Positions 5,397 to 25,127 of a stretch of 64,000 nt of DNA are shown piece by piece. The stretch's first letter is position 1, and each line of letters opens with the position of its first letter. Both the position numbers and the translations under genes were made by a program. Origin of the DNA: Sinomonas sp. P10A9 (GTDB taxonomy: Bacteria; Actinomycetota; Actinomycetes; Actinomycetales; Micrococcaceae); contig NZ_CP163302.1 in the NCBI RefSeq assembly GCF_041022165.1, forward strand, positions 1,426,001 to 1,490,000. Direction: 5' to 3'. The notes under the pieces were generated by a model. The model was not told the origin of the DNA. It saw nothing but the letters and a program-made list of their open reading frames with translations, and made no database searches.

Positions 5397-5984
5397 ATGA
5401 CCGAGACGTGGCTCATCGTGGGCCTGGGCAATCCGGGACCCGAGTACAGCGGCAACCGCCATAACGTCGGCCAAATGGTCCTCGACGAGCTGGCGTCCCG
5501 AATGGGAGCCAGGTTCGCCGCGCACAAGGGTGCACGCGCCGTCGTGCTCGAGGGTCGGCTCTGGGTCGGTGGGCCCCGTGCCGTGCTCGCCAAGCCGCTC
5601 ACCTACATGAACGTCTCGGGCGGGCCGACGTCATCGCTGGCGAAGTACTACGGGGTCGACCCCGCGCACGTCGTCGCTGTGCATGACGAGCTCGACATCC
5701 CGTTCAACACGGTCAGGCTCAAGCTGGGCGGGGGAGAGGGCGGCCACAATGGCCTCCGGGACATCTCCAAAGCCCTCGGCACCAAGGACTACCTTCGCGT
5801 GCGGGCCGGGGTGGGCCGACCGCCCGGCCGGATGGACGCCGCGGACTTCGTGCTCCGCGACTTCTCGGCCGCGGAGAAGAAGGACCTCCCCTTCCTTCTC
5901 GACGAGTCGGCCGACGCCGTCGAGGCGCTCGTGCGCGACGGCCTCGCCGCGGCGCAGCAGAAGTTCCATCCGGCCAAGGCGTAG
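5397..5984 (+). CDS. pth: Peptidyl-tRNA hydrolase
   Basis: Cleaves peptidyl-tRNAs released by stalled or drop-off translation, in the cytoplasm. The 195 aa is normal for bacterial Pth. The catalytic and substrate residues of the family are visible: N12 in GLGNPG, H22 in NRHNVG (general base), N72 in PLTYMN, D97 in VHDELD and N118 in [11 protein letters not shown] 5397 has gagga upstream. In many bacteria the next gene is mfd; here mfd lies 41.6 kb away. Confidence 0.96.
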
Positions 5985-6035
5985 TTGGCGCCCAGAATGT
6001 GACGTCGGCTCCTGCCCGGGCCCGTGGGACCGCGG

Positions 6036-6068: not shown

Positions 6069-6095
6069 ACCGACGCATGGGGGCGAAGGTCATAG

Positions 6096-8819
6096 ATGGG
6101 GATTCGATTGGGGCTGTCCGGGGACAGCCAGATCATCCACGACGCGCAGGCACGCCTCAGCGACAGGCTGGCGTGGGCCCGCGTAGTCCGTGCGAAGGAG
6201 ATCGCCACGGCCGAACAGGCCTTGGCTGATCCGTCGACGTACGGCGTCGTGGTCACCGGCGACGCGAGCTTCGGCAAGTCGGCGGTGGCCTCTGTGCTGC
6301 TCAACGACCTCGAGGCAGTCGCCTACACCGTGCGCCTGCGGAGCACAATCATGGGCACCGAGACACCGTACGGGGCGCTCAACGTGCTCCTCGCGCGGCT
6401 CCCCGAAGACGCCCAGGACGATCCGGGCACGATCATGCGCGGGATCCTGCAGCTGCTCGCCTCGGATGCGCGCGGCCGCGAGGCGGTCATGTCGCTCGAG
6501 ACCTCCCACAACCTCGACGAGCTGAGCACGGCGACGCTCGTGAACGTCATGGTCACCGGCACCGCGAAGCTCGTGATCGTCGCCGATCGGGCGAGCGAAC
6601 TGCCCACCGACTTCCACTGGATGCTCTCCGAGGAGCGCTTGCGGGAAGTGCCTTTGGCTGCACTTGATCCCGAGGACACGCTGACTGGCGTGCGCGAGCT
6701 CCTCGGGGCGCTCGTGCCGCAGACGGTCGCGCTCCAGCTTCACGGCCTCTCGCGCGGCAATCCGCAAGTACTGCTGTTGACGGTCTCCGAGCTCCTCCAG
6801 CGGGGCGCGCTGACGGTGGCCGACGGCGTGTGGACGCTTCCGCCCGACACTGACACGAGCGGGATCCGGCAGCTCGACGACCTCGTGAGGGCCCGCTTCC
6901 AGCGTCATCCCGCGCAGATCCAGGAGATCATCGAGGCGCTCGCGTGCGCCCGGCGCATCCCGCTCGTGCGGCTCGCGTCCACGTTCCGGGGCGAGGACCT
7001 CGCCCAGATGGAACGCGACGGGCTCCTCGCCATCGATGAGGGAGGCCGCCAGTCTGTCTCCCTCGCCGACGCGCTCATGGGCGACGTCGTGCGCGGCTGG
7101 CTCTCGGTGCCGCGGCGGCGCGAGCTGCGCGCCCTCCTCATGGCTGACGGTGAGCCGCCGCTCGACACCATCACGAACCTCGAGCTGCTCGGACTCGCGG
7201 CGTGGGCCCGTGAGTGCCACGCGCTGCTGCCCACGGGCCACGCTATCGCGGCGGCGGCCGAGTCGCTGCGCCTCTATGACGCGAAGTTCGCCCTCGAATG
7301 CCTCGACGGGGTCGAGCGGGACCCGAGCACATGGCCCACCGTCCAACGGCTGAGGGCCAGGGCGTTCCTCGTGCTCCAGCTGCCCCGGCAGTCGCTCGCT
7401 TGCCTCGATCAGGTGTCCGCGGCCGAACTGGACGCCGAGGGACCAGTCGAGATGGCCACGTTCGTGGCGATCAGAGCCGAGGCCCTGCGCTGGGTCCCGG
7501 AAGGTGCCCGGGCGACGCGGGACCTCCTCGCGGACGCGCGCGGTGAGCTCCTCATTCGTGCCGGGACGGGCGCCTCATCGGACGCGGAGAACGCCAGAGC
7601 CGCCGCACTGTTGGACCTCGCCGAGTTCGAGTACTGGGCCTTCCTCGGAGAGTTCGGGCGCATCGTGGGCCGCCTCGAGGCGACCGTGGCGGATCCCAAC
7701 CCTGTCGACGAGGAGACTCGCCTCATGGCCGCCTCCATACTCATGGAGGCCCGCACCGTACTCGGACGGGAGCAGGAAGGCCTTGCCCTCCTGCACGAGC
7801 TCACCGCGCAGATCAATCTGGGCAGCGGGCCGCTGCGGATGCGCCGGGCGTTCGCGACGAGGGCTTTCGACGTGCTCCTCCTCAACGGACACTGGCGCCA
7901 GGCCCTCGCCCTGCTCAAGGCCGCGCCGCAGTGGTCGCCCCACTACCTGAGTACGTCTGGGGCATCGGTCGAGCTGGCCGTGGGGCTGGCCTACGTCTAC
8001 GCGGGCCGAGGGCACGAGGCGATCGGCTCGCTCCTGTCAGCGACCGCACTGTTCGAGCGGACGCCGGCGAGCAGATGGCTCGGCCTCGCGTGCGCAGCCA
8101 CAGCCTTCGCCTATGCCCAGCAGGGTGATACGCCCTCGGCACGGAAATGGCTCAGCAGGCTCGAGGACTGTGAACCTGCCGCCGGGTATCGCACCGCGTC
8201 CTACATCGACTTCTGCTCCGCGATGGCCAGGCGGTGGATCGGCGAGCCACACGCTGCCGCGATGCTCGTCGAGTCCGCGCGTGAGGACATTGCCCACGGC
8301 CGCTGGAACCCGGCCGGAATCAAGCTCGTGGGGGCCACCGTGGAGGGCAGCGAGGACGACCTGCGCCTGCTTGAGGACGTCTGCGCCCATCGTCAAGGCC
8401 CGCTCGCCGAGATCGGTGAACGCCTCGCCCGCGGCACACGGACCGGAAGCCTCGATGACCTCGCTGCGGCCGCAGATCTTGCAGCCAGCCTCGAGCTCGA
8501 TGCCCTCGAATCGCGCTGCGCGGCGGTGGCCTTAGACGTGGCCCACGAAATCAACGAGGTCGTGGTGGCCCGATTCATGCAGGCACGCCTCGACACCCTC
8601 GCCGGTCGTGTCGTCATCCTGCCGGTCGTGCCCAGCCGGGCCCCGCGGGTACTCACGCAGCGGGAACGAGAGGTCGCCGCCCTTGCGGCGATGGGCGAGT
8701 CGAACAGGCGCATCGCGGAGGACCTCGGACTCTCGGTGCGCACGGTTGAGGGCCACCTCTACCAGGTGTTCAGCAAGCTCGCCGTCTCCACCCGCACCGA
8801 ACTGGCGGAGTTCCTGTGA
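6096..8819 (+). CDS. LAL/STAND-type LuxR regulator A1, 907 aa
   Basis: Large ATP-dependent transcription regulator: N-terminal P-loop domain, long helical repeat middle (TPR-like), C-terminal LuxR helix-turn-helix. The Walker A is GDASFGKS (residues 55-62). The Walker B position is degenerate, with ET at 135-136 where Asp-Asp is expected (VMSLETSHNLD). The HTH spans about residues 852-907 (LTQREREVAAL, NRRIAEDLGLSVRTVEGHLYQVF), ending the protein. It is clearly paralogous to the protein at 13769 (for example CARRIPLVRLASTF against AARRIPISGLAGLF). The B-type partner begins 23 bases after its stop, so the pair is probably one transcript. Targets and ligand are unknown. Confidence 0.85.
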   Translation: MGIRLGLSGDSQIIHDAQARLSDRLAWARVVRAKEIATAEQALADPSTYGVVVTGDASFGKSAVASVLLNDLEAVAYTVRLRSTIMGTETPYGALNVLLARLPEDAQDDPGTIMRGILQLLASDARGREAVMSLETSHNLDELSTATLVNVMVTGTAKLVIVADRASELPTDFHWMLSEERLREVPLAALDPEDTLTGVRELLGALVPQTVALQLHGLSRGNPQVLLLTVSELLQRGALTVADGVWTLPPDTDTSGIRQLDDLVRARFQRHPAQIQEIIEALACARRIPLVRLASTFRGEDLAQMERDGLLAIDEGGRQSVSLADALMGDVVRGWLSVPRRRELRALLMADGEPPLDTITNLELLGLAAWARECHALLPTGHAIAAAAESLRLYDAKFALECLDGVERDPSTWPTVQRLRARAFLVLQLPRQSLACLDQVSAAELDAEGPVEMATFVAIRAEALRWVPEGARATRDLLADARGELLIRAGTGASSDAENARAAALLDLAEFEYWAFLGEFGRIVGRLEATVADPNPVDEETRLMAASILMEARTVLGREQEGLALLHELTAQINLGSGPLRMRRAFATRAFDVLLLNGHWRQALALLKAAPQWSPHYLSTSGASVELAVGLAYVYAGRGHEAIGSLLSATALFERTPASRWLGLACAATAFAYAQQGDTPSARKWLSRLEDCEPAAGYRTASYIDFCSAMARRWIGEPHAAAMLVESAREDIAHGRWNPAGIKLVGATVEGSEDDLRLLEDVCAHRQGPLAEIGERLARGTRTGSLDDLAAAADLAASLELDALESRCAAVALDVAHEINEVVVARFMQARLDTLAGRVVILPVVPSRAPRVLTQREREVAALAAMGESNRRIAEDLGLSVRTVEGHLYQVFSKLAVSTRTELAEFL

Positions 8820-8841
8820 CCATTGGCGACTGGGACCGCCC

Positions 8842-11556
8842 GTGAACGAGGAGCCTCCCGGGCCGCACGTGCTCCCTACCACCGCGCGCGTCGTCGAGCT
8901 CGTCCAGCGGCCAGGAACGGCTGCTGTGCTCGTCCTCGGCGAGATGGGCGCGGGCAAGTCCGCGGTGCTCGACGGCGCGGCGAGGCTCCTCGACGGCGCG
9001 ATGGAACTTCTCCGCCTCCACGGCAGCCCCTCGCTCGCGAAGGTGCCCTACGGCGTGCTCGCGCCCTTCCTTGGCGCACTTCCCCCCGAGGGGGCCGGAT
9101 CGCGCGTCGAGGTGCTACGGGCGTTCTGGCGCGCCGTCGAAGCCCTCCGGCGGGATCGCAGAAGAGACCTCCTGCTCGTGATCGACGATGCACACGAGCT
9201 CGACCCCGCGTCGAGCGAGGTGGTCGCCGAGCTCGTTTCGGCCCGATGGACCAAGGCATTCGTCGCGGCGCCCAGCGGTGCAGCGCTGCCCCGGCCGCTC
9301 ATGGAGCTGTGGCTCGACGGCGGAGTCGAACGCGTGGACCTCGCTCCGCTGAGCGTCGACCAGGTCCGGGAGTTCATCGAGTCTGCCCTGGGCGGCCGCG
9401 TCCTGGCCTCGGTGCCGCGGCTCTTCTGGCAGGCATCGGAGGGCAATCCACTGGTGCTGGGCAGACTCGTCGATGAGGCCCGACGAGCCGGATCCCTCGC
9501 GCTGCGCGGGCAGACCTGGGTCATCACCGGCGAACTCCCGCATCAGGGCGTTGGACTGGTCGGCCTCGCACGGGCGCAGCTCGCGCGCCTGACGGCGGCC
9601 GAGCGGGAAGCACTGAGCCTGATTGTCGTTGCCGAGCCGGCACCGCTCGAATTGATCGAACGCGAATACGGCGCAGAGACCATCCAGCGTCTTGTCGCGA
9701 CCCGCCTCGTTCGTCCGCCCGAGGGGCCCGATGGAGTGCTCCGCCTGCGGCATCCCGTGTATGGCAACGCCCTCCTCTCGCTCATCCCGCGCACCACGTC
9801 GCTCGAGCTGAGGCAGCATGCGACCGAGTACGTGGCCCACCAGACGTCGACGGCGGAGGGCCTGCTGCGGGCCACCACCTGGGCTCTGGACTGCGGCTTC
9901 ACGATGGAGGACGCAACGCTCTTGGCCGCCGCCCAACTGGGGCTTCGCCTCTATGAGACCTCGCTCGCCGTGCGGGCTGCCCGCGCCGTCGGGGATCCCG
10001 AGCTGCGTCCGGCCGCCGATGAGGTGCTCGGCCAGGTCGCCTACAGTCGGGGCGAGTACGCTGAGGCCGCTGCGCTGCTGAGGCCGAGCGGAGGCCTCGA
10101 CGGCAGGACCCACGCCTGCCTCACGGGAGGTCTCGTGTGGATCTTCGCCCGCACCGCGTTGGGCCACTCGGCTGGGGCCATCCGCGACGACGTCGACCGA
10201 CTGGAGGATGGAGAGGTCAGGGAGGTCCTCGGCCTCGTGCTCGATTCACTCGTGGGTGACTCCGCCCGGGTCGCCGAGCGTCTGGCCCGGAGGCAGGCCG
10301 CACGTGCGCACGACGCTCGCGCGGACGACCTGGCAGAGATCGTCGTCCAGTCTGTCCGGGCTGAGCTCCTCGTCGGCGCGGGCCACCCAATACAGGCGCT
10401 CGCTGCCGTGCGAGGCCGGCTCACCCGGGCCGTGGAGGGCAACATCGTGACGCCGTTCGTCCAGTCCTTCGCGACGGCACGGCTGCTCATCGCAGATCTC
10501 ACTGCAGGGCAGTGGGACGCGGCCGACGCCGACGTCCAGCGATTCCTCATCGCCTCCAACGCCGGTCTGGTTGCAGACGGCGCCGCCGCTGAGACGGCGC
10601 GGGGCCTGAGCCTGCTGCGCAGAGGCATGTTCCGCGATGCCCTCGCCACGCTCACTCCGGCCGTCGACGCGCTGCGGGGACGCGATCCCCAGCATGTCGT
10701 CGGCCTCGCGGCGTCGACCGCTGCCTACGCAGGTGTGCGACTCGGGGAGTACGACGTCGCGCGCGGGCTCCTCATCGACGTTGAGAATCCCGCGAATCCC
10801 GGGGTTTCCCTTCTCCGGCCCTTGGTCGACCTCTTCGCCGCGGCCGCGAGAGCCGGGCTCGCCGGACCGGGCGCACCGCCGGTCGCCGAGGCTGGCCGGG
10901 ACCTCGAGGCAGTGCTGGAGAGGATGTCCGGCAGGGGTCGGCTCGACCTTGAGATCCAGGGCGAGATCCTCTGGCTCGAAGCCGGGCACCGTAGCCGGCT
11001 CGACCGGCTGCGGGACGTCGCGGAGAGGATCGAGGGGGCGTGGGCTGCGTCGGCTGCCCGCATGGCCTCGGCGCTCATCGACGGCTCCCCAGCGACGCTG
11101 CTTGAAGCAGCGGAGTCCCTCTTTGCGGCCGGTGCGGTGTGGAACTCACGGGAGTGCTTTGCGGATGCCTCGCGCGCCCTCGACAGGATGTTGCGCCGCA
11201 CCGACGCGCGCGAGGCCTGGGCGAGGAAGACGGACTGCGACGCCATCCTGGGGGACGAGGGCCCGGCGCTCGCCCCGCCGGAGGTGAAGCGCCTCACCCG
11301 CAGGGAACGCGAGGTCGTGGCCTTTGCCGTGTCCGGACTCAGCGACCGGGAGATCGCTCAGCGGCTCACGGTATCGGTGAGAACGGTGGAGGGGCACCTC
11401 TACAGGGCCTATGCGAAGCTCGATGTGACGAGCCGCGAACAGCTCACGTCTGCCGTGGGCAGGACACGCCGGAGCGCACACTCGGCGCGCGCAATCGAGT
11501 ACACCTCGAACGGGACCAAGTACTCTGTCTCCGACGGGGTACCGAAATACGAGTAG
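8842..11556 (+). CDS. LAL/STAND-type LuxR regulator B1, 904 aa
   Basis: Second member of the first regulator pair. It has intact nucleotide motifs: Walker A GEMGAGKS at residues 33-40 and Walker B LLLVIDDAHELD with D115-D116. The middle is a long Ala/Leu-rich helical region. The LuxR HTH (RLTRREREVVAFAVSGLSDREIAQRL, VRTVEGHLYRAYAKL) is followed by an unusual tail of about 30 residues (ending VSDGVPKYE) that the three sister proteins lack. The start is GTG 8842; the frame is open further upstream, but only through the end of the preceding gene and without a ribosome site. It pairs with A1 and is paralogous to the protein at 16517. Ligand and targets are unknown. Confidence 0.83.
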   Translation: MNEEPPGPHVLPTTARVVELVQRPGTAAVLVLGEMGAGKSAVLDGAARLLDGAMELLRLHGSPSLAKVPYGVLAPFLGALPPEGAGSRVEVLRAFWRAVEALRRDRRRDLLLVIDDAHELDPASSEVVAELVSARWTKAFVAAPSGAALPRPLMELWLDGGVERVDLAPLSVDQVREFIESALGGRVLASVPRLFWQASEGNPLVLGRLVDEARRAGSLALRGQTWVITGELPHQGVGLVGLARAQLARLTAAEREALSLIVVAEPAPLELIEREYGAETIQRLVATRLVRPPEGPDGVLRLRHPVYGNALLSLIPRTTSLELRQHATEYVAHQTSTAEGLLRATTWALDCGFTMEDATLLAAAQLGLRLYETSLAVRAARAVGDPELRPAADEVLGQVAYSRGEYAEAAALLRPSGGLDGRTHACLTGGLVWIFARTALGHSAGAIRDDVDRLEDGEVREVLGLVLDSLVGDSARVAERLARRQAARAHDARADDLAEIVVQSVRAELLVGAGHPIQALAAVRGRLTRAVEGNIVTPFVQSFATARLLIADLTAGQWDAADADVQRFLIASNAGLVADGAAAETARGLSLLRRGMFRDALATLTPAVDALRGRDPQHVVGLAASTAAYAGVRLGEYDVARGLLIDVENPANPGVSLLRPLVDLFAAAARAGLAGPGAPPVAEAGRDLEAVLERMSGRGRLDLEIQGEILWLEAGHRSRLDRLRDVAERIEGAWAASAARMASALIDGSPATLLEAAESLFAAGAVWNSRECFADASRALDRMLRRTDAREAWARKTDCDAILGDEGPALAPPEVKRLTRREREVVAFAVSGLSDREIAQRLTVSVRTVEGHLYRAYAKLDVTSREQLTSAVGRTRRSAHSARAIEYTSNGTKYSVSDGVPKYE

Positions 11557-11567
11557 CGGCTACGCAT

Positions 11568-11591
11568 GTGGCACTAAAGGCCCAGTGCCAC
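11568..11591 (+). terminator. Hairpin after regulator pair 1
   Basis: Inverted repeat GTGGCACT / AGTGCCAC (8 bp, 8-base loop) starting 12 bases after the B1 stop. There is no T tract. It is the best terminator candidate between the regulators and sufS. Confidence 0.5.
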
Positions 11592-13658
<2,067 letters not shown>

Positions 13659-13768
13659 ACACCCGGACTCGGTCAAAAGTCTCTATTCGAGGGCCGGGCC
13701 TCTGACGTACGCTAAGCCCTGATTTGGGCGGACGAGCTGTTGCCGCCTGGGCTGTGGGGTGACTTGGC

Positions 13769-16480
13769 ATGCAGAGAGATACCGCTGCATCGATGACCTT
13801 CGTCCACGCTGACGATGCACCGGCTGGATCAGCGGAACGCCAGGCCGATCGGCTTACGTGGGCGATGCTCGTCCGTCAGGAGGAACTCGCGCACGCGGTC
13901 CACGCATTCAGGGACCCGGCCTCACTGGGGGCGGTCGTGACCGGCCCGCCCGGCGTGGGGAAGTCATTCCTTGCGAGCGCGGTCCTCTCTGCCCTCGGCG
14001 CCGGGGTGTACCCACTGCGGATCCGGACCCCTTCCGTGCCGTCGGATGTGCACTTCGCGTCCCTGGGGCCCCTTCTCGCCCGTCTCCCGAGAGGTCTGGC
14101 CGACTCGCCCACCAAGCTCTTGGTCGCCGTCCAGGAGATCCTCCGTGGGGATGCCGGCGGGCTGCCGGTCGTCCTCGTCGTCGAGTTCGGCGCCCCGCTG
14201 GATGAAGGCACCGTCGGAGTGCTCCTCCACCTTCTCCACGGAGGGATGGCGAGGCTGCTCGCGATCGCCCCGCGCACCACCGACCTGCCGGCCGACTTCC
14301 TGCGTCTCGTCCGCGACGGCAGGCTCAGCGAGGTCGCCCTGCGCGGCATCAGCATCCGCGAGACCCGAAAGCTCGTCTCCGCCCTCATGGGTGGGCGCGT
14401 TTCAGCCTCGGCGGTGGTCGAAGTCCATCAGGCCTGCGGAGGCAATCCCTCGACGGTCCAGGGCATCGTGCGGCGCGAGCATGCGTCCGGCAATCTCCAT
14501 CGGAGAGGAGCGGTCTGGACCCTCGACGGTCCGGTCGAGGGTGAGGTCGGCGCGGGAACGGATGAGATCATCCGTGCGCGCTGGGCGCGCGAGCCCCAGG
14601 ATGTCCGTGAGGTGATTGAGCATCTCGCAGCGGCCCGGCGAATCCCGATTTCAGGGCTCGCCGGGCTTTTTGGTACCGAGGTCCTGGTTGACATGGAGGA
14701 GCGGCACCTCCTGGCCGTCGACGGGAGCCCGCGCCGGTGCGCGTACCTCCGGGAACCGCGGATGGCCGAGCTCGTGCGGGGGCGGCTTGGGCCCGACCGC
14801 CACCGGGAGCTCGCGTCGCTCGCGACGCGCAGCGGCGCCCCCGAGGAGGACGGGCTGGACGCGGAAGATCTCATCTCGTACGTCGAGTGGGCCTTCGCGA
14901 GCGGGGGATCCGTGGGCCCGGACCTTCTGACCCGTGCGGCACATGCCGCGATGGGACTCTTTGAACCGCAGCGGGCACTGGATCTCTTGGACCGCGGCGG
15001 GAGGCCGACTGGTCCTGCGGCCGTCGGGGAGACCCTCGCGAGGGCCGACGCGCTCTCGATCCTCGAACGGAGGGAGGAGGCGCTCGCGGTCATCACGCAC
15101 CTGCCGCCGGCCGCGCTCGACGGGGTCGGAGCGGTCGAGCGCGCGCGCGTCGCGGCCACGGAAAGCGAGCTGCTCACGTGGCTCCCCGAGCACGGCGACC
15201 CCCTCGGCCCACTCCGCACAGAACGGGCAGCGCTCGCGGCCGAGAGCCACGCGGGCCGGCACGTCCTGCGAGACGCGGCGGAGGTCCTCGACCTCGCCGA
15301 GTTCCGCGCCCACGCGTTCCGGGGCGAGTTCGTCCCGGTCCTCGACACGCTTGAGGAGGCCGCGCTGCGGGCAGACGCGAGCGAGGGGTTCCGCCATGAG
15401 ACTTCGCTCCTGCTCGCCCTCGCGTGGGCGGCCTGCGGACGGGAGCTGGATGCGGCCGCGCTCCTTGCCGCGGTCGAGTCGAGGGCGGCCCAGTGCTGCG
15501 AGGATGACTCCTTCATCTCCGCTGCCTGCTTCGTCTGGATTGTCAATGGCGACTGGAAGCGGTGCCTTGAGCGGCTCGAGACCTACATGGAGCGCGGTGG
15601 GCGGCGGCTCAGACTGCGCGGAGGTCTCCTCGAGCTCTGGGTGGGCCTCTCGCTCGTCATGGCGGGGCAGGGAGGACCTGCCCTCGAGCCGCTCCTGAAC
15701 GCGCTGGCCCAACTCGAGGAATTCCCCGCCGCCAATGCGGAGCGGGCCGCGTCGGCTGCGACGGCGCTCGCGTACGCCCAGATCGGGGACTCGGGCGAGG
15801 CCGCGCTGTACCTCGAGAGGGCGGCTGCCGCGGCCGGGCATACCCCGTGGCGGCTCGAGTTCTTCGCCGATTTCTGCGAGCTCCTGGCCCGTCGCTGGCT
15901 CGGGGAGGGCGCGGCCACCGAGCGGCTTCTCGCCCACGCGGCCCTCGACGAGGAGGCGGGGCGTGTCGCAGCGGCCGGATTGAGGGTCTTCGCGGCGTCC
16001 GTGCCCGGCACCGATAGCGAGTTCCTGTGGATCGAAAGGCTCGGGCAGCAGCGGCAGGGACCTCTCGCGCACCTCATGACGTCGGTGGCCGCCGCATCCC
16101 GCTGCCGTGAAGCCGAGGCGCTGCTCGCGGCGGCCGAGGAGGCGCACGCGATGAGCCTCGACAGCGTCGAGGCCCGATGCGCCGCTCTCGCGCTCGATGC
16201 TGCGCGCGACCACGGCGACGCAGGGGCCGCAGGCCGCGCCCAGACCAGGCTCGACCGCCTCACCCGGATCCTCCCGGTCCTTCCCCTCGTCCCGCAGGTG
16301 CCCGCGCCAGTGCTGACGAGCCGCGAGCGCCAGATCGCGGACATGGCCGCATCGGGGTCGTCGAACCGGGATATCGCGGAGGCGATCGGCGTCTCGGTGC
16401 GCACCGTCGAGGGGCACCTCTACCAGGTGTTCATGAAGCTCGGGGTGTCCTCGCGCAGCGGCCTCGAGGGGCTGGTCTGA
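13769..16480 (+). CDS. LAL/STAND-type LuxR regulator A2, 903 aa
   Basis: Paralogue of A1 (6096). The Walker A is canonical, GPPGVGKS at residues 59-66, but the Walker B position again lacks Asp-Asp: VLVVEFGAPLD, with E139-F140. The middle is long and helical. The C-terminal HTH (LTSRERQIADMAASGSSNRDIAEAIG, VRTVEGHLYQVFMKL) ends the protein. It starts at ATG 13769 after a short purine-rich site; a -10-like TACGCT lies at about 13709. It begins 110 bases after sufU and is followed after 36 bases by its B-type partner. Ligand and targets are unknown. Confidence 0.84.
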   Translation: MQRDTAASMTFVHADDAPAGSAERQADRLTWAMLVRQEELAHAVHAFRDPASLGAVVTGPPGVGKSFLASAVLSALGAGVYPLRIRTPSVPSDVHFASLGPLLARLPRGLADSPTKLLVAVQEILRGDAGGLPVVLVVEFGAPLDEGTVGVLLHLLHGGMARLLAIAPRTTDLPADFLRLVRDGRLSEVALRGISIRETRKLVSALMGGRVSASAVVEVHQACGGNPSTVQGIVRREHASGNLHRRGAVWTLDGPVEGEVGAGTDEIIRARWAREPQDVREVIEHLAAARRIPISGLAGLFGTEVLVDMEERHLLAVDGSPRRCAYLREPRMAELVRGRLGPDRHRELASLATRSGAPEEDGLDAEDLISYVEWAFASGGSVGPDLLTRAAHAAMGLFEPQRALDLLDRGGRPTGPAAVGETLARADALSILERREEALAVITHLPPAALDGVGAVERARVAATESELLTWLPEHGDPLGPLRTERAALAAESHAGRHVLRDAAEVLDLAEFRAHAFRGEFVPVLDTLEEAALRADASEGFRHETSLLLALAWAACGRELDAAALLAAVESRAAQCCEDDSFISAACFVWIVNGDWKRCLERLETYMERGGRRLRLRGGLLELWVGLSLVMAGQGGPALEPLLNALAQLEEFPAANAERAASAATALAYAQIGDSGEAALYLERAAAAAGHTPWRLEFFADFCELLARRWLGEGAATERLLAHAALDEEAGRVAAAGLRVFAASVPGTDSEFLWIERLGQQRQGPLAHLMTSVAAASRCREAEALLAAAEEAHAMSLDSVEARCAALALDAARDHGDAGAAGRAQTRLDRLTRILPVLPLVPQVPAPVLTSRERQIADMAASGSSNRDIAEAIGVSVRTVEGHLYQVFMKLGVSSRSGLEGLV

Positions 16481-16516
16481 GGTGCGGGGAGGGCCTGAGG
16501 CTATGGGGGATCGGGG

Positions 16517-19249
16517 GTGACGGGGCAGGCGGAGCTCCGACGGGAGACTGCGGCCGCAGGTGGGCCCACACGTCAGGGGATCGCGTCCGCGGCCGCGGAC
16601 CTGCTGCGCCGCGAGGGCCCGACCGCGGTGTTCATCGTCGGCGAGCTGGGATCAGGACGGTCGCATCTGCTCTACGCGATCCTGGCGGAGCTCGCGGGCG
16701 AAGTCACGCCGTTCCGCCTCTCGACGGGTCACAGTCTCCGCGACATCCCGTACGCCGCCCTCCTGGCGCGCCTCCCTCAGCTCACGGTCGACGACGTGCA
16801 GGACCGCGTCGGGGTCCTGCGCGCCCTGTGGTCCGAGCTGCGCCGCACGACGGGGGAGACCGGCCAGCCCATCCTCGTGGTCGTCGACGACGCCCAGGAC
16901 CTCGACGACGGATCGGCAGGCCTCATCGCGGAGGCGGTCGCGTCGTCGTGGGTACGGCTCCTCGCTGCAGGGACGGCGAGAAGCGGCCTCCCCGGCGACC
17001 TGCTCGAGATGTGGCATGACGGGATCGCTGAACGGATCGAGCTCCCGCCGCTGAGCCTTGCGGAAGCCAAAGGCCTCGTGGAAGGACGCCTCGGCGGCCG
17101 GCTGTCCGCCACCGCGGCCCGCGTGCTGCACAGCATCGCCGGCGGGAATCCGCTGCACCTCGTCTCCCTCCTGGACGAGGCGCTCGAGGGGAAGACGCTC
17201 GTGCGTCAGGACGGCCTCTGGCTCCTGACCGCACCCTTCCGCAGCCGCGGCGAAGCCCTCGCGGAATATGTGCGCAGCGGGATGGAGGCCCTCACGTCTG
17301 CGGAGCGCGAGGCGGTCATGCTGGTAGCGCTCACTGAGCCGCTGCCCAGGGCAGCCGCACGCGCCCTCATCATGCGCGACGTGCTCGACCGCCTCCTGGA
17401 ACTCGGCTGGCTCACCGAGACGGCGGGGGACGGGCTGCGTGTGCGGTCGAGACTCGAGGGCGATGCCGTGCGCCGGATGACGACGGCGACCCGCCGCCTC
17501 CACCTCTACCGGCGTGCCGAGGCCGCCGGCGACGACCTCCGGCAGCCCGCCAACGAACTCAGGCTCCTCGAACTGGCGCTCGGAACCGGCACGGTGCTGC
17601 CCGCAGCCGAGCTGCTCGCCCGCGCCTCGACGGCCGTGCGCCGCTTCGACAGCGAGCTCGGACTCAGGGCGGCGGCCATGATCGACGGCGACGCTGAGCG
17701 CTCCCTCGTCCGGGGCGTCGTCGCCCGAGCCCACCTCAATCTCGGGAGCCCGGAAGCGGCGCTCGCCGCCGTTGCCCGCGGCCCAGCAGATCCCAGCGAT
17801 GCGGCCGATGTGCTCGCTGGCTCCCTCGTGAAGTTCATGGTGCGGCTCGCCCTCGGCGACCTCGAGCGCGTGGAGGAGGACGCCGTCGCGCTTGAGAAGG
17901 CGGCGGCGAACGTCTCGCATGGCGACGCCCGGGTGATCGGGCCAGGAGCCAAGGAGGCCGTCCTGCGGCGCGCGCGGCTCCTGCGGGCGCTCGCCTCGGC
18001 GGAGCGTGCTGACTTCGGCGCGGTCGCCGCCGCGCTTGAAGAGGACGGACGGTCGGCCCGTGCCTCTGCGGCGCCTGAGATCGAGAAGTACCTCTGGATC
18101 CTCCTCGACTCGGAGGTCCAGCTCGCGGCGGGGCGTTACGAGAAGGCCGCACACTCGGCGGGCGTCGTGCTAGCAGGCAGAGTCATGGACGAGGAGCACT
18201 TCCCCCTCGCCGAGCACGGATTGGTGCGGTACCTGGCCGGGGCAGTGCTGGCGGGTGATTGGGAGGACATCGACGGTGTCCTTGGCTCCTCTGAGCGGGG
18301 ACACCTGCGCCCGGTCGTGGTGTACGGGCCTTGCCTGGACTGCGCGCGCTCGTATGTCCTCCTGCGCCAGGGGCGGGCCGAGGAGGCCGACGCCGTCCTT
18401 GCCGACGTCGTGCAGAACCTCGAGCTCCTCGATCCGCTCCGGCTGCGGGGCCTCGCGTGGTCGTTCGCTGCGTGGTCCGCAGCGGCGATTGCGCACCCCG
18501 ATGTAGCACGCGCCCGACTGGCCCGCGCCGAGCAGACAGCCGGCGTGGGCAGCGCAGCGATGCGCCACCTCGCTGCGATGCACCGTGCGGGCGCCCTCGA
18601 GATGCTCGACGCCGGGACCGGGCTTCCACTCCTGGCGGCCATGGCCGAGGAGGACCATGCGGCCTCTCGCCCGGGCTGGGAACTCGTGGCCCGCATCATC
18701 GGATTCGAACTCGGGGCCTCGGACGACGACGGGCGGGGCGCCGGGCTTGCCGCCGAGGCCGAGGGGTCCTGGGCACGTGCCTGGGCTGCCTGGGCCAGCG
18801 CCCAGACGGCCGAGGGTCCTGATGGACCCGCAGGTGCCGCGAACCCCGGATCTGGTGGCGCGGCCGAAGGCTACCTGGCTGCGGGAGAGCTCTTCCGCAG
18901 CCTCGGCATGCTCCGGCGTGCCCGGGCCGCCTTCGCGCGGGCAGCCGCATGCTCCGACTCCGCCGGGGACCGTGCCGCCGCGCGTCGCGCCGCGGCCGCC
19001 GCGGGCACCTGTGAGGGCCTGCCCGGATCGGGAGAGGCGGGCGAGCGGGAGGAGGCCGTCCTTGCCTCGCTGCGCCTGAGCCGCCGCGAGCAGGACGTCG
19101 TCGACCTTGCCCTCGATGGCCTGAGCGACCGGCAGATCGCGGACAGGCTCCACCTGTCCGTGCGGACCGTTGAGGGCCACCTCCACCGCAGCTACGCGAA
19201 GCTGGGCATCCGCAGCCGCGAGGAGCTACGCGCCGCCGTGCTCGGCTGA
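16517..19249 (+). CDS. LAL/STAND-type LuxR regulator B2, 910 aa, Walker A Lys replaced by Arg
   Basis: Paralogue of B1 (8842). The P-loop reads GELGSGRS (residues 42-49), so the catalytic Lys is Arg (R48), while Walker B is intact (ILVVVDDAQDLD, D124-D125). Such a change usually abolishes or strongly weakens nucleotide hydrolysis in P-loop proteins. The middle is long and Ala/Leu-rich. The C-terminal LuxR HTH is RLSRREQDVVDLALDGLSDRQIADRL, VRTVEGHLHRSYAKL. GTG 16517 was chosen as the first start after the A2 stop. It forms a pair with A2, probably co-transcribed. Ligand and targets are unknown. Confidence 0.83.
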   Translation: MTGQAELRRETAAAGGPTRQGIASAAADLLRREGPTAVFIVGELGSGRSHLLYAILAELAGEVTPFRLSTGHSLRDIPYAALLARLPQLTVDDVQDRVGVLRALWSELRRTTGETGQPILVVVDDAQDLDDGSAGLIAEAVASSWVRLLAAGTARSGLPGDLLEMWHDGIAERIELPPLSLAEAKGLVEGRLGGRLSATAARVLHSIAGGNPLHLVSLLDEALEGKTLVRQDGLWLLTAPFRSRGEALAEYVRSGMEALTSAEREAVMLVALTEPLPRAAARALIMRDVLDRLLELGWLTETAGDGLRVRSRLEGDAVRRMTTATRRLHLYRRAEAAGDDLRQPANELRLLELALGTGTVLPAAELLARASTAVRRFDSELGLRAAAMIDGDAERSLVRGVVARAHLNLGSPEAALAAVARGPADPSDAADVLAGSLVKFMVRLALGDLERVEEDAVALEKAAANVSHGDARVIGPGAKEAVLRRARLLRALASAERADFGAVAAALEEDGRSARASAAPEIEKYLWILLDSEVQLAAGRYEKAAHSAGVVLAGRVMDEEHFPLAEHGLVRYLAGAVLAGDWEDIDGVLGSSERGHLRPVVVYGPCLDCARSYVLLRQGRAEEADAVLADVVQNLELLDPLRLRGLAWSFAAWSAAAIAHPDVARARLARAEQTAGVGSAAMRHLAAMHRAGALEMLDAGTGLPLLAAMAEEDHAASRPGWELVARIIGFELGASDDDGRGAGLAAEAEGSWARAWAAWASAQTAEGPDGPAGAANPGSGGAAEGYLAAGELFRSLGMLRRARAAFARAAACSDSAGDRAAARRAAAAAGTCEGLPGSGEAGEREEAVLASLRLSRREQDVVDLALDGLSDRQIADRLHLSVRTVEGHLHRSYAKLGIRSREELRAAVLG

Positions 19250-19533
19250 ACGGGCGCCGCTACGGCGGCCTTTCCGCCGCCCTGCCGCGGGCTTCATGGC
19301 GACCTCCCCACCAGCGACCCGAGTAGTCGCCTGCCTCGGTGCGCACGTACGTGGATCGGGACACGTAGGGGAAAGGTGCCTGCCTGCGTACCCGCCAAGG
19401 GTTCGCCCGTGGGAAGCCTTCTCCAGCTCGGGTACCCACTACTGGTGACCCCCACAGGGCGCTCGCGCTGTACTGGTGGAGGTGAAGGGCCCGGGTTCGG
19501 TCGGGCCGCCATGGGGAAGCCGAGGAGCGTGTC
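19250..19533 (+). promoter_or_regulatory. Upstream region of the polysaccharide operon
   Basis: No gene seen. A small hairpin CGGCGG-CCTTT-CCGCCG (19263-19279) may end the regulator transcript. Further on are AGTAGTC (19322-19328), ACGTACGT (19345-19352), GGACACGTAGG (19359-19369) and CCTGCGTACC (19383-19392). The stretch 19365-19392 has a close match at 43271-43297, at almost the same distance from the next start codon. The promoter itself is not obvious. Confidence 0.4.
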
Positions 19534-21042
19534 ATGTCCGTTGGCGCCGAGCAGCATCCAGCAGCACGCACGGCCGCGTTCCGCGGCGGCATGAGGGTCT
19601 TGTCCGACCTGCATGGCCGGTCCCAGACCCGGATCGCCCGGTCCCTGCGGGCGCAGGCGTGGCCACGGCGATACGCAGGCTACCTCCGCGTCGCGGATGC
19701 CCTCGTGGTCCTCGCCGCCGCGGCGAGCGGGATCGCGTTCATCGACGGCACCCCGCGATCCGTCGCCTCGATGGCGGTGCTGGCAGCCGTCTGGCCGGTC
19801 GCGCTGGGCGTCTACGGGAGCCGCGACCACTCGGTCCTGGGGATCGGCGTCGAGGAGTACCGTCGGCTTGTCGCTGCGAGCGTGCACCTGTTCGCGGCGG
19901 TCGCGATCGGCGTCGTGATCCTTGACGGCTCGCTTCCGGCACGCGTCTTCGTGGCGGTCTTCGGCGCTGGAATCATGGGGCTCCTGGCCATGCGCTGGAC
20001 CAGTCGCCGCTGGCTCAATCGGCGGCGGCAGGAGGGGCTGTACCTCACGCCGGCCGTCGTGGTGGGGGAGCCCGAGGACGTCCGCTACGTGGTTCGCCGG
20101 ATCGCCGCGAGCGAGGGCGCGCCGTACGACGTCCTCGGTGCGATCCTCCCGGGCGGCCGACGTGGGCAGTCCCTCGCGGTGGACGATGAGCGGCTGCCGG
20201 TCCTGAGCTCGACGGACGACGTCGTCCGGACGGTCGCGCTCAAGAGGGCCGGTGCGGTGATCATCGCCGGCCCGGTCCCGGGTGGCAGCCAGTACCTGCG
20301 CGAGCTCGGCTGGAACCTCGAGGCGCATGACGCCGAGCTCGTCCTCGCGTCGTCCCTCACCAACGTTGCGGGTCCCCGCATCCACTGGCGGCCCGTTCAG
20401 GGGCTGCCCCTCATGGAAGTCGACCTCCCGCACTACTCAGGTGCCAAGCATGTGGTCAAGCGGGCCATGGACCTGGTCCTCGCCGCGGCCGCGCTCGTGG
20501 TCCTCGCGCCGGTCCTCGGCGTGCTGGCGCTCATCGTGCGGCTTGACTCGCCCGGGCCCGTCTTCTTCCGGCAGGAGCGGATCGGCAAGGGCGGTGAGCC
20601 GTTCGCCATGCTCAAGTTCCGCTCGATGGTGCGGGACGCCGAGGCAGGGCTGAGCGTCCTCGCCTCGCTGAACGAGGGTGCGGGCGTCCTGTTCAAGGTC
20701 AAGGACGATCCCCGCATCACCCGCTGCGGACGATGGATGCGTCGTTTCTCGCTCGACGAACTCCCGCAGTTCATCAATGTCCTCAAAGGCCAGATGAGCC
20801 TGGTCGGACCGAGGCCACCACTTGCGAAGGAGGTCGGCGAGTATGAGCGGTACACGCGCCGTCGGATGCTCATCAAGCCCGGCATCACGGGACTCTGGCA
20901 GATCAGCGGACGTTCCGACCTCCCGTGGGACGACGCCGTCCGGCTGGACCTCTACTACGTGGAGAACTGGTCGATCACGGGTGACCTCATGATCCTCTGG
21001 CGGACGCTCCGCGCCGTCTTCTCGAGCACCGGCGCCTACTGA
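19534..21042 (+). CDS. Polyprenyl phosphate sugar-1-phosphate transferase (initiating enzyme)
   Basis: Attaches the first sugar-1-phosphate to undecaprenyl phosphate at the membrane, starting assembly of the repeat unit. The 502 aa matches WbaP/CpsE-like enzymes. The N-terminal half has four or five hydrophobic helices and a CoA-binding-like domain (about 45-290). The C-terminal bacterial sugar transferase domain (about 310-500) has MDLVLAAAALVVLAPVLGVL, the catalytic region PGPVFFRQERIGKGG and KFRSMV, LPQFINVLKGQMSLVGPRPP, and KPGITGLWQISGRSD. ATG 19534 has gaggagcg upstream. It heads the coupled operon. The sugar transferred cannot be told from sequence. Confidence 0.92.
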   Translation: MSVGAEQHPAARTAAFRGGMRVLSDLHGRSQTRIARSLRAQAWPRRYAGYLRVADALVVLAAAASGIAFIDGTPRSVASMAVLAAVWPVALGVYGSRDHSVLGIGVEEYRRLVAASVHLFAAVAIGVVILDGSLPARVFVAVFGAGIMGLLAMRWTSRRWLNRRRQEGLYLTPAVVVGEPEDVRYVVRRIAASEGAPYDVLGAILPGGRRGQSLAVDDERLPVLSSTDDVVRTVALKRAGAVIIAGPVPGGSQYLRELGWNLEAHDAELVLASSLTNVAGPRIHWRPVQGLPLMEVDLPHYSGAKHVVKRAMDLVLAAAALVVLAPVLGVLALIVRLDSPGPVFFRQERIGKGGEPFAMLKFRSMVRDAEAGLSVLASLNEGAGVLFKVKDDPRITRCGRWMRRFSLDELPQFINVLKGQMSLVGPRPPLAKEVGEYERYTRRRMLIKPGITGLWQISGRSDLPWDDAVRLDLYYVENWSITGDLMILWRTLRAVFSSTGAY

Positions 21043-21090
21043 CGCCGGGCCCGCCCACTCGTCACGCACCCAAGGAAGAAGGGCCACCAG

Positions 21091-22245
21091 GTGGATTCCC
21101 AGAACTCCATCGTCCAACTCAAGGACCGCACCCCGCGGCCGCTCGGCGTCGCCGTTGTCGGCGCCGGGTACTGGGGGCCGAATCTGGCCCGGAACTTCGC
21201 CACGGCCCCGGACTGGGACCTCAAGGCCATCTGTGATCTCGACACCGAACGGGCCGCGGTGCTCGCGGCCCGGTTCAGGGTTCCGGCCGTGGGTTCGCTC
21301 GACGAGGCGCTCGACACCTTCGAGATCGACGCCGTCGCGATCGCGACTCCGGCACGTACCCACCACGGGATCGCGCTCACGGCGCTCGGCGCCGGCAAGC
21401 ATGTGCTTGTCGAGAAGCCGCTCGCCGACCACTGGGACAGGGGCGTCGACATGGTGACAGCCGCCGAGTCGCGCGGGCTCGTCCTCATGGCCGACCACAC
21501 ATACTGCTACACCCCGGCCGTGCAGAAGATGCGCGAGGTGCTCCACGACGGCGATCTCGGCGAGGTCCTCTACATCGACTCCGTGCGCATCAACCTCGGC
21601 CTCGTCCAGCCGGACGTCGACGTCTTCTGGGATCTCGCGCCCCATGATCTGGCCATCCTGGACTACATCCTCCCCGAGGGGCTCGCCCCGGAAACGATCT
21701 CCGCCCACGGCGCGGATCCCCTCGGCACCGGCCGGGATTGCGTCGGCCATTTGTCCTTCGACCTTCCGCTGGGAGGCATGGCCCACATCCACGTCAACTG
21801 GCTCAGCCCGACCAAGATCCGCCAGATGGTGGTGGGAGGGACCAAGCGGACTCTCGTCTGGGATGACCTCAACCCGCAGCAGCGGCTCAGTGTGTACGAC
21901 CGAGGCGTCCAGCTGCCTCCCCGCGGCGCACGGCGCGCCCTGGACCGCCGGGACGTCGCGATCTCGTACCGCCTCGGCGACACATGGTCGCCCGCCCTTC
22001 CCGAACGGGAGGCACTGGGCAGCATGGTGGCCGAGTTCGCGACGGCCATCCGGGACGCCCGCCCGTCGGTAACGAGCGGAGCGTCGGCGCTCCGCGTGCT
22101 CGGGGTCCTCGACGCGACGACGCGGAGCCTCCAGCTCGGAGGCGCCCAGGCCGCAGTCGCCGAGCCGCCCGTCGCGATCGCGACAGGCGGGTATGGACAG
22201 GAAACCGCAGGGGAGATCGGGATGAGCAGGGGGGCCGAGGCGTGA
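21091..22245 (+). CDS. Gfo/Idh/MocA oxidoreductase (WlbA/WbpB-like)
   Basis: NAD-dependent sugar-nucleotide dehydrogenase, 384 aa. The Rossmann motif is VAVVGAGYWGPNLARNF near residues 15-31, the conserved EKPLADHWDRG (Lys of the active site) is near residue 110, and the C-terminal alpha/beta domain follows. In the WlbA/WbpB branch the enzyme oxidises the 3-hydroxyl of UDP-GlcNAc-uronate before transamination and acetylation. The presence of two DegT aminotransferases and a WlbB-like acetyltransferase (42479) favours such a role, but the exact substrate is inference. GTG 21091 has a long AAGGAAGAAGG site. The stop overlaps the next start (GTGA). Confidence 0.8.
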   Translation: MDSQNSIVQLKDRTPRPLGVAVVGAGYWGPNLARNFATAPDWDLKAICDLDTERAAVLAARFRVPAVGSLDEALDTFEIDAVAIATPARTHHGIALTALGAGKHVLVEKPLADHWDRGVDMVTAAESRGLVLMADHTYCYTPAVQKMREVLHDGDLGEVLYIDSVRINLGLVQPDVDVFWDLAPHDLAILDYILPEGLAPETISAHGADPLGTGRDCVGHLSFDLPLGGMAHIHVNWLSPTKIRQMVVGGTKRTLVWDDLNPQQRLSVYDRGVQLPPRGARRALDRRDVAISYRLGDTWSPALPEREALGSMVAEFATAIRDARPSVTSGASALRVLGVLDATTRSLQLGGAQAAVAEPPVAIATGGYGQETAGEIGMSRGAEA

Positions 22246-23237
22246 GCGTGCTGGCAGGGGCGTGCGCCCTCGTGACGGGCGGGGCAGGGACCATCGGATC
22301 GACGGTCGTCGACCAGCTGCTCGACGCCGGCGTCGACCACGTGGACGTTCTGGACAATCTCACGCGGGGTCGGCTCGCGAACCTCGACCATGCGCTCGCG
22401 ACGGGTCGGGTGCGCCTCATCGACGGCGACCTCCGCAACCGCGACGTGGTCCACGATGCGACGGTAGGCAAGGACCTCGTGTTCCACGAGGCCGCGATCC
22501 GCATCACCCAGTGTGCCGAGCAACCTCGGCTCGCGCTCGAAGTGCTCGTCGACGGGACGTTCTCCGTCCTCGAAGCGGCAGCGCAGCACGGGGTGGACAA
22601 GGTGGTCCTCGCTTCGAGTGCGTCGGTGTACGGGGCAGCGGATGACTTCCCCACGGCGGAGCGCCACCACCACCACAACAACGACACGTTCTACGGCGCG
22701 GCAAAGAGCTTCAATGAGGGGATGGCGCGCAGCTTCCGCGCGATGCACGGGCTCGACTACGTGGCCCTGAGGTACTTCAACGTGTACGGGCCACGGATGG
22801 ACGTCCACGGGCTCTACACCGAGGTGCTCGTCCGCTGGATGGAGCGCATCGCGGACGGGCGCCCACCGCTCGTCTATGGCAACGGCGAGCAGACGATGGA
22901 CTTCGTCTACACCGCCGACGTCGCGCGGGCGAACATCCTCGCGGCCGAATCCTCGGTGCGGGAGGGCGTGTACAACGTTGCCAGCGGTTCGGAGACGAGC
23001 CTCCTCGCGCTCGCCGTAGCACTCCTGGAGGCCATGGACTCGAAGCTCTCGGTCGAGTTCGGTCCCGAGCGGACCGTCAACGCCGTGGCCCGTCGGCTCG
23101 CCGACACGACGGCCGCGGCGCGGGATCTCGGCTTCCGCGCGGAGATGCCGCTCGGGCTGGGGCTCCGCCGCCTGGTGTCGTGGTGGTCGCCGCTGCGCGA
23201 GCAGATCGCGGCCGCTCGGGTGGTGGCGGCGTCATGA
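22242..23237 (+). CDS. NAD-dependent epimerase/dehydratase (extended SDR)
   Basis: A 331-aa sugar-nucleotide epimerase or dehydratase. NAD motif TGGAGTIGSTVVDQL lies near residues 9-23, the Ser of the catalytic triad is in VVLASSASVYG, and the YxxxK pair is FYGAAKSFNEG. The later segment YFNVYGPRMDVHGLYTEVL is typical of UDP-glucose/UDP-GlcNAc 4-epimerase-like enzymes. GTG 22242 overlaps the preceding stop by four bases, and the gene itself overlaps the next one (ATGA). It probably supplies a hexose or hexosamine epimer for the repeat unit; the substrate is not determined. Confidence 0.85.
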   Translation: MSVLAGACALVTGGAGTIGSTVVDQLLDAGVDHVDVLDNLTRGRLANLDHALATGRVRLIDGDLRNRDVVHDATVGKDLVFHEAAIRITQCAEQPRLALEVLVDGTFSVLEAAAQHGVDKVVLASSASVYGAADDFPTAERHHHHNNDTFYGAAKSFNEGMARSFRAMHGLDYVALRYFNVYGPRMDVHGLYTEVLVRWMERIADGRPPLVYGNGEQTMDFVYTADVARANILAAESSVREGVYNVASGSETSLLALAVALLEAMDSKLSVEFGPERTVNAVARRLADTTAAARDLGFRAEMPLGLGLRRLVSWWSPLREQIAAARVVAAS

Positions 23238-24472: not shown

Positions 24473-25127
24473 GCTGCTCCTCGTCGCCGCGAGCGGTCTG
24501 GCCCGCGAAGTGATGGCCCTCGTCCGCGCGAGCGACGACTTCGACGTCCTCGGCATCCTCGACGACGATCCGCTCCGCACGGGCAGCGTCCTGGACGGCG
24601 CACATGTCCTTGGCCCCCTCGCCGAGGTGCGCAGGCACCCGGGCGCCCGCGTCGTCGTGTGCGTGGGAAGCGGAGTGGTGCGCGCGGACATCGTGCGCAG
24701 GCTCGGGGCGATGGGTTTCCCTCCCGGCAGGTACGCCACCATCATGCATCCGAGCGTCCAGGTGCCCGAGGGGTGCAGCGTGGGGGAGGGGAGCATCCTG
24801 CTGGCGAACGTCGTCCTGACGGCCGCAGTGACCGTGGGGCGGCACGTCGTCGTGATGCCGGGCGCGGTGCTCACGCACGGAGACTTTGTGGACGACTACG
24901 CGACGTTCGCTGCGGGTGCAGCGCTCGGGGGGTCCGTCGTCGTCGGCCGGGCGGCCTATCTCGGGATGAACAGCAGCGTCCGGCAGCGCACCCGCGTCGG
25001 AGCGCGCGCGGTGATCGGGATGGGCGCGGCCGTGATCTCCGACATTCCCGACGGCCAGACGTGGGTTGGCGTCCCCGCCCGGCGGATGTCCCAGAGCCCG
25101 GACGACGCCCCCGAGGAGGAGTCATGA
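24465..25127 (+). CDS. NeuD/PglD-like sugar O/N-acyltransferase
   Basis: A 220-aa protein with an N-terminal Rossmann-like sugar-nucleotide domain (LLLVAASGLAREVMALVRAS) and a C-terminal left-handed beta helix of hexapeptide repeats from about residue 95 (HPSVQVPEGCSVGEGSILL onward). The catalytic His of the family is probably the one in VVMPGAVLTHGDFV. It ends with the common PDGQTWVGVPAR segment. It transfers acetyl from acetyl-CoA to an amino or hydroxyl group of a nucleotide sugar. ATG 24465 lies inside the end of the aminotransferase gene, so translation is coupled. Confidence 0.86.
   Translation: MAELLLVAASGLAREVMALVRASDDFDVLGILDDDPLRTGSVLDGAHVLGPLAEVRRHPGARVVVCVGSGVVRADIVRRLGAMGFPPGRYATIMHPSVQVPEGCSVGEGSILLANVVLTAAVTVGRHVVVMPGAVLTHGDFVDDYATFAAGAALGGSVVVGRAAYLGMNSSVRQRTRVGARAVIGMGAAVISDIPDGQTWVGVPARRMSQSPDDAPEEES

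Follow-up and report, generated by a model that had tools for sequence, protein, structure and literature searches.

To our knowledge, LAL/STAND regulators have been studied mainly as single proteins. MalT, the maltose activator of Escherichia coli, is a STAND protein of about 900 amino acids that works as one protein and joins a sensor like tetratricopeptide repeats (TPR) to a C-terminal LuxR helix-turn-helix (HTH), and Arthrobacter, the host of AirR, belongs to the same bacterial family as Sinomonas sp. P10A9, the organism considered here. In the accessible parts of the papers, to which all citations below refer, MalT-type STAND proteins are described as switching between ADP and ATP into multimers and as controlling the maltose system (PMC4381067, PMC10427625), IniR as a mycobacterial signal transduction ATPase and regulator of envelope stress (PMC5760070), and GdmRI and GdmRII as two LAL regulators that are both required for geldanamycin synthesis (PMC7105598). 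For AirR of Arthrobacter sp. UMCV2, 'solo' LuxR-type regulators are described, some of which are large and cluster with ATPase-bearing LAL proteins, and a lipid-like compound acts as inducer (PMC9659744). The locus analysed here lies in a stretch of 64,000 nucleotides of the Sinomonas genome (the window; contig NZ_CP163302.1, positions 1,426,001 to 1,490,000) and encodes giant regulators of this kind in adjacent couples, A1-B1 and A2-B2. On balance it is probable that A and B are co-evolving subunits of one STAND/LAL activator, which would act on an operator-like dyad before polysaccharide and regulatory genes, with a structured RNA in the same circuit.

An initial annotation of the window had placed four LuxR/LAL regulators of 903-910 residues as A1-B1 and A2-B2 around sufSU and had taken A1 to resemble A2 and B1 to resemble B2. 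The order and the genes were confirmed, and over their full length A1-A2 (36% identity) and B1-B2 (34%) are the closest couples, A-B comparisons giving 26-30%. Relatives were collected in two samples. For set 1, 100 genomes of the same family were sampled, 47 of which match A2 at E 1e-15 or better; 60 loci chosen from these matches were fetched, and the open reading frames of at least 700 amino acids with a BLAST score of at least 60 (149 kept, window included) were placed in a tree. One split with support 1.0 delimits 77 A proteins, leaving 65 B proteins and 7 outside both. A1 is not nearer to B1 than to A2 (tree distance 3.77 vs 1.81), and in an IQ-TREE analysis of 58 sequences the A clade has an ultrafast bootstrap support of 100; B forms no exact split there, the B protein of a genome from another family (G104) joining an outside protein. 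Nor are the orthologues routinely single: 62 A genes have a B gene directly downstream, and 15 A and 3 B genes are unpaired among 142. With gene starts estimated from BLAST, the gap between A and B is about -76 to +73 nt in 61 pairs and 514 nt in one. Since an A with a B behind it was what counted as a pair, this order is partly definitional, and the actual test is that a single other couple lies less than 120 nt apart, namely an A with an outside protein (L035). Set 2 consisted of loci from named genomes, the best 76 among the listed matches of A1 relatives; 75 of them carry family genes, with 101 A-B pairs and 12 lone genes, mostly from Sinomonas, Arthrobacter, Pseudarthrobacter and Paenarthrobacter, plus one contig labelled Sporosarcina. 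The two sets overlap in several genomes (L125/G018, L138/G096, L139/G078, L148/G076, L149/G084). The Sporosarcina contig (L151, NZ_JADHDY010000011.1) has the pair, the RNA and a polysaccharide gene, and its assembly may be mislabelled or contaminated. In some genomes an extra A-type gene without a B of its own adjoins a complete pair (L077, L080, L081, L060, L065, L066), for instance in the order A-B-A-A-B.

Separate trees of the 62 A and 62 B proteins of set 1 branch in parallel. Their distances are correlated with a Mantel r of 0.903, which none of 5000 free permutations reaches, and when partners were swapped only within the 15 multi-pair genomes, which removes the history of the species, again none of 5000 reached the observed value (mean 0.787, maximum 0.892). 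Compared within genomes, the best partner proved to be the adjacent gene 30 times out of 31. This match within genomes indicates that pairs have been duplicated as pairs repeatedly, and it backs the earlier proposals that the pair was the duplicated unit and that A and B, retained together, work together. In the IQ-TREE analysis A2 and B2 each group with the genes of another locus (L053) and not with A1 and B1, so that the duplication looks older than the genus; FastTree agrees with this grouping for A2 and not for B2. Another genome of the genus (G037, locus L052) has A1-B1 only, with neither A2-B2 nor a polysaccharide gene in the 20 kb past sufU.

A and B differ as parts throughout the clade. 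In set 1, 59 of the 61 B proteins have the second acid of Walker B (D or E), against 13 of the 61 A proteins, in which N is commonest; in set 2 it is present in 100 of 101 B and 20 of 101 A proteins, although these are counts at the level of clades whose entries are not independent. Loss of this acid is known from P-loop ATPases in general to slow hydrolysis. One residue in the third HTH helix, as placed by the structure models, is R in B (61/62 in set 1, 99/101 in set 2) and usually Q in A (42/62 and 101/101). In the window all four regulators have the size of LAL proteins and exceed the cut-off of PF00196 (46-55 bits vs 23.5); Walker A is intact in A1, B1 and A2 and carries a K-to-R change in B2, while AAA_16 stays under its cut-off in all four and AAA_22 exceeds it in B1 and B2. 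Confident AlphaFold models of A1 and B1 (mean pLDDT, the predicted local distance difference test, 91.1 and 88.0) consist of an ATPase-like N-terminal part, a long helical array and the HTH, that is, the nucleotide-binding oligomerization (NOD) ATPase, TPR-like helical sensor and effector domain that define MalT-type STAND proteins. The best match of both models in the PDB is the STAND-TPR protein 6mfv, and B1 also matches MalT (8bob). The NCBIfam equivalogs MalT, IniR and AbsR2 all remain under their cut-offs (best scores 28.7 vs 537, 35 vs 750 and 98 vs 850). A role in anti-phage defence was considered and rejected, since PADLOC gave only matches of the HTH region to two CARF3 models and no full-length match.

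The pairs are linked to polysaccharide genes. Of the 62 pairs of set 1, 37 are followed on their own strand by a Bac_transf sugar transferase gene no more than 10 kb away; they come from 31 genomes, several such pairs sharing one locus, and the cluster behind B2 in the window opens with such a gene. Conversely, 34 of the 63 Bac_transf copies in 46 searched genomes lie in this way behind a family member of any type (one of the 46, G036, has no pair, and the pair-bearing G029 was missed). The second frequent neighbourhood is pth-A-B-sufSU, and the Sinomonas order, pth-A1-B1-sufSU-A2-B2-polysaccharide, holds both in tandem.

Twelve stretches between B and the sugar transferase gene, one per genus, share CGAGTA and ACTACTC k-mers far above shuffles, and from reading these stretches the dyad GRGTA-N5-TACTSGTG was derived. 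With at most one mismatch it occurs in 79 of 163 B 3′ flanks (20/62 in set 1, 59/101 in set 2) vs 16 of 1630 random windows, and with at most two mismatches in 119 of 163 vs 44 of 1630, the pattern having been derived partly from loci on which the enrichment was then counted. Exact dyads number 45 in the 169 Mb of 44 pair-bearing genomes, 23 of which have one, vs 4 in 47 genomes (134 Mb) that match neither A/B nor the RNA, from which six with an RNA match but no A/B match had been excluded; the four overlap open frames. The pattern written backward, as a control, occurs 48 times in the 44 pair-bearing genomes (59 in all 50), which speaks against the dyad as a frequent signal, and 33 times in the 47 genomes without pairs. 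Because the control is as frequent as the dyad, raw counts were dropped, and the argument is carried by location and by the contrast with pairless genomes: the dyad is not frequent as such but is unusually frequent in pair-bearing genomes. The window genome itself has 162 places with at most two mismatches, so that position and not the match argues for the degenerate dyad at 11551.

Thirty of the 45 exact sites lie outside B flanks, and of 20 that were read 18 are intergenic as judged by a codon-based gene caller, the next called gene on the same strand being at least 2 kb away for two of them (L218, L219). Two of the 20 (L231, L234) are on the contig of their own pair, inside the polysaccharide region. 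In one genome (G063) a dyad stands before the first-named kind of gene, a sugar transferase gene, in a cluster that is about 1 Mb away from the pair; the other genes behind intergenic dyads, named from their sequences, include a glycosyltransferase-like gene (G039), an epimerase, another glycosyltransferase and a SARP/BTAD regulator. A TANNNT hexamer starts 20 or 21 nt past the dyad in 13 of 20 sites, vs 0.4% per position elsewhere; for this set the two gene-internal sites were omitted and two mutually similar SARP sites (L202, L203) added, and the offset was first noticed and then tested on the same sites. A dyad over the -35 position at a fixed phase would be an arrangement fitting an activator. 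Autoregulation of A1 and A2 through the dyad was rejected, as none was seen upstream of them by eye and none of the places with at most two mismatches lies there. In G018 (L201, L202, L203) both dyad and RNA precede three SARP/BTAD genes, suggesting a small regulon with daughter regulators; the dyad of L201 has a spacer of 6 and does not match the pattern.

A hairpin RNA lies between B and the next gene. The window copy was found with E values of 2.4e-12 and 5.3e-13 in two model searches, and at E 0.001 model R1 matches nothing else in this genome. Compensatory changes occur at 17 of 20 base pairs among 40 aligned copies, and 98.3% of cells pair vs 90.7% in shuffles (0/500 reach this), sliding of the partner destroying the pairing; these copies had been picked for a GAGACC with CCCC behind it and for good folding, so that the loop is constant by construction and pairing was favoured. 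An internal C-rich loop is conserved in these copies picked for CCCC, and the GAGACC loop is present in 35 of 50 listed copies and absent from 15. For 34 of the 62 pairs of set 1 the RNA follows B at a distance of up to 1 kb, and for 7 it precedes A; in set 2 it was found in 31 of the 34 loci searched (of 76), on the strand of the pair except for three weaker mirror matches in the same places, and in none of six short loci of distant single regulators. In the 100-genome sample it occurs in 49 genomes, 43 of the 47 with an A/B match and 6 of the 53 without, where the match lists were overlapped by hand and then tested and R1 had been trained on copies beside pairs, partly from the genomes then searched. 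At least two of these six (G050, G075) carry A/B-type genes beside the RNA. Among 296 genomes of the class the RNA was found in three from this family, one of them the window genome, and at a marginal level in one other.

Twenty copies elsewhere were read. Three of them stand before SARP/BTAD genes, with the dyad some 170-180 nt ahead of the RNA, and others before the gene of an ANTAR protein or before further genes. ANTAR proteins are RNA-binding antiterminators, and the copy in question (L196, G039:C1:62281-62346) lies about 40 nt upstream of the ANTAR-domain gene. Antitermination, LoaP-like or through ANTAR, was also considered as a possible role for the RNA, and the literature listed on it was of a general kind. 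The complement of the loop, GGT[CT]TC, occurs within 220 nt upstream of 20 of the 35 copies with the loop and of none of the 15 without it (background 12.6%), a contrast that may reflect kinship, the copies lacking both being partly those upstream of A; by eye, GGT[CT]TC also stands directly before the start of some second-pair A genes. Rfam 15 at gathering cut-offs gave only a tRNA in six RNA-holding loci; searched to E 1, window positions 1-34000 gave a tRNA and one sub-threshold match elsewhere, with no match to the RNA element, and L094 15300-15850, searched to E 5, gave seven matches, all far under cut-offs. The covarying hairpin (window 11642-11710; L064:9838-9903, L071:9269-9334 and others), tied to the A-B pair and to polysaccharide leaders, is a candidate for a new RNA family. 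The polysaccharide link, the dyad and the RNA are additions beyond what the initial annotation had claimed.

The proposed activator would work as follows. A and B, encoded by adjacent and nearly overlapping genes, would each place an N-terminal nucleotide-binding module and a long TPR-like helical sensor before a C-terminal LuxR/GerE HTH. Both subunits may sense a signal related to the envelope or to carbohydrates and then contact each other and co-assemble, B contributing the normal Walker-B acids and A, usually without the second acid, binding ATP and hydrolysing it poorly, so that A would favour the active state. The A-B assembly would bind GRGTA-N5-TACTSGTG over the -35 position, about 20 nt before the -10, and turn the downstream unit on rather than repress it. 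The Sinomonas polysaccharide cluster would be driven by the A2-B2 couple next to it through the 19430 site, whereas A1-B1 would use the weaker site at the end of B1, before the structured RNA and sufSU; the RNA may serve as a cis leader or as a small RNA. A stricter version, in which an obligate hetero-oligomer is held in the ATP-bound state by the hydrolysis-impaired A and reset by the hydrolysing B throughout the family, acting through the one dyad at polysaccharide and regulator promoters and with the RNA as a second layer through pairing of its loop (GAGACC in most copies) with GGUCUC near start codons, is tentative and rather improbable, its probability being lowered by the fact that only some of the copies share the constant loop.

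Several observations weigh against an A-B activator. Co-inheritance of adjacent genes can be explained by linkage alone; the unpaired genes of set 1 (some at contig ends, some of them an extra A beside a pair) must be accounted for, and in five loci (L033, L034, L077, L080, L081) an A gene has another A gene behind it at 129-279 nt. Some A proteins keep D-D, the Walker-A lysine is absent from 13 of 61 B proteins in set 1 and 20 of 101 in set 2, and the whole-length TM-scores (template modelling scores) of the fold matches are low (0.22-0.23). No dyad within two mismatches is found in 44 of the 163 B flanks, and no exact one in 21 of the 44 pair-bearing genomes or in the pair-bearing G104; regulators other than A and B could bind it. 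The RNA was not found 3′ of B for 28 of 62 pairs (L048 lay outside the search). A first alternative is that A and B are independent regulators, kept together only by a shared transcript and each binding its own sites as a homo-oligomer. Besides linkage, this is favoured by the presence of LAL-like proteins in 73 out of 296 genomes from the class, often as a single match, by the seven relatives outside both clades, six of which have no family neighbour in the fetched stretch, and by the 15 unpaired A genes. It is nevertheless possible rather than likely, as the close A-then-B couple has been kept through repeated duplications, residues of both the ATPase site and the HTH differ clade-wide between A and B, and one main type of dyad lies downstream.

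The pair could also act locally, its control confined to the transcript 3′ of B and its polysaccharide link reflecting a shared insertion hotspot between pth and sufSU. Although pth-A-B-sufSU without a polysaccharide gene in the read stretch is common and some two-pair loci have the dyad between their pairs, polysaccharide genes also adjoin the pair where the fetched stretch contains no pth (L030, L032, L034, L036, L039), dyads precede the distant G063 sugar transferase gene and the G039 glycosyltransferase-like gene, and G037 lacks both A2-B2 and, in the 20 kb past sufU, a polysaccharide cluster; a purely local element is therefore quite unlikely. For the RNA, a rival account is an ordinary intrinsic terminator of the A-B transcript with no regulatory part. 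A GC-rich stem 3′ of B, with four or more T among the 12 nt behind it in half of the 50 copies (25), and the 15 copies missing the GAGACC loop would suit a terminator. The copy that precedes A in 7 of the 62 pairs, those in front of SARP/BTAD, ANTAR and further genes, GGT[CT]TC upstream of loop copies only (20/35 vs 0/15) and the conserved C-rich internal loop would not, and a consensus scan of window positions 5980-19600 gave no standard promoter or terminator. A plain terminator is accordingly considered unlikely, and the A-B activator with the RNA in its circuit is preferred.

The features of the locus are collected in the table. Searches with A1 and B1 found no further full-length family member in the 4.29 Mb one-contig genome, and among named relatives the A1 of Sinomonas sp. 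ASV486 is 100% identical to the window A1. A hairpin between pth and A1 (about 6052-6070, ACGTTCC-GAA-GGAACGT) is not used as evidence; comparable short hairpins with apparently compensating changes can be read in three other Sinomonas leaders (L050, L051, L052). Inside the polysaccharide region a 1557-aa protein (window 34595-39268, - strand) carries DUF4082 repeats, DMFA2_C and bacterial Ig-like domains.

Table. Features of the A-B locus, in window coordinates
Feature	Position	Strand	Basis
pth, presumably peptidyl-tRNA hydrolase (named from its sequence), upstream neighbour of A in many loci	5397..5984	+	tblastn with window gene
A1, A-type STAND/LAL regulator; Walker A GDASFGKS intact, E-T instead of D-D at the Walker-B position, HTH residue Q890	6096..8819	+	
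B1, B-type STAND/LAL regulator; Walker A GEMGAGKS and Walker B DD intact, HTH residue R855	8842..11556	+	
Degenerate operator-like dyad GAGTAGCGGCTACGCATG, 2 mismatches, overlapping the B1 stop codon	11551..11568	+	genome-wide pattern search
Structured RNA element: P1, P2, loop with CGAGACC, 3′ internal loop CCCCCCAGC	11642..11710	+	model R1 search, covariation, fold
sufS (cysteine desulfurase, Aminotran_5)	11860..13206	+	
sufU (NifU_N)	13203..13658	+	
A2, A-type regulator; Walker A GPPGVGKS, E-F at the Walker-B position	13769..16480	+	
B2, B-type regulator; Walker A lysine replaced by R (GELGSGRS), Walker B DD	16517..19249	+	
Half site CGAGTAGT, upstream of the 19430 dyad	19320..19327	+	read by eye; CGAGTA is the top 6-mer in the k-mer comparison
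Operator-like dyad GGGTACCCACTACTGGTG, between B2 and the polysaccharide cluster	19430..19447	+	sole exact pattern match in the 4.29 Mb genome
Candidate -10 TGTACT, about 21 nt past the dyad, itself no TANNNT match	19469..19474	+	read by eye
Polysaccharide cluster: Bac_transf sugar transferase, GFO_IDH_MocA, epimerase, two DegT aminotransferases, hexapeptide transferase, Polysacc_synt_3 (flippase-like), glycosyltransferases, Wzy_C	19534..32841	+	

In titles and the beginnings of abstracts of the open-licence literature, no description of such a circuit of pair, dyad and RNA was found, and the accessible part of a census of actinobacterial LuxR proteins describes none of the three (PMC3466318). 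AirR differs in being called 'solo', and pairing, a dyad and an RNA are unmentioned in the accessible text (PMC9659744). GdmRI and GdmRII, compared by description only, belong to an antibiotic cluster, and a heteromer, a family-wide pair, a dyad and an RNA are likewise unmentioned in the part available (PMC7105598). IniR resembles the present regulators in being, as far as the accessible account goes, an actinobacterial STAND-type regulator linked to the cell envelope (PMC5760070), but its model is listed for B1 only, with 35 bits vs 750 and a best stretch, 728-874, that is C-terminal. If the proposed activator is real, soil bacteria like Arthrobacter would have a regulator, an operator and an RNA for polysaccharide genes, which matter in biofilms and desiccation, and a two-subunit clade with differing ATPase sites would make the role of ATP hydrolysis in STAND switches testable by natural comparison. 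With MalT the regulators share the STAND architecture, and the B1 model matches it (8bob). The NCBIfam MalT model, however, gives the window regulators 25-29 bits vs a cut-off of 537, and whereas MalT is a single protein, here two paralogous subunits are kept as a pair.

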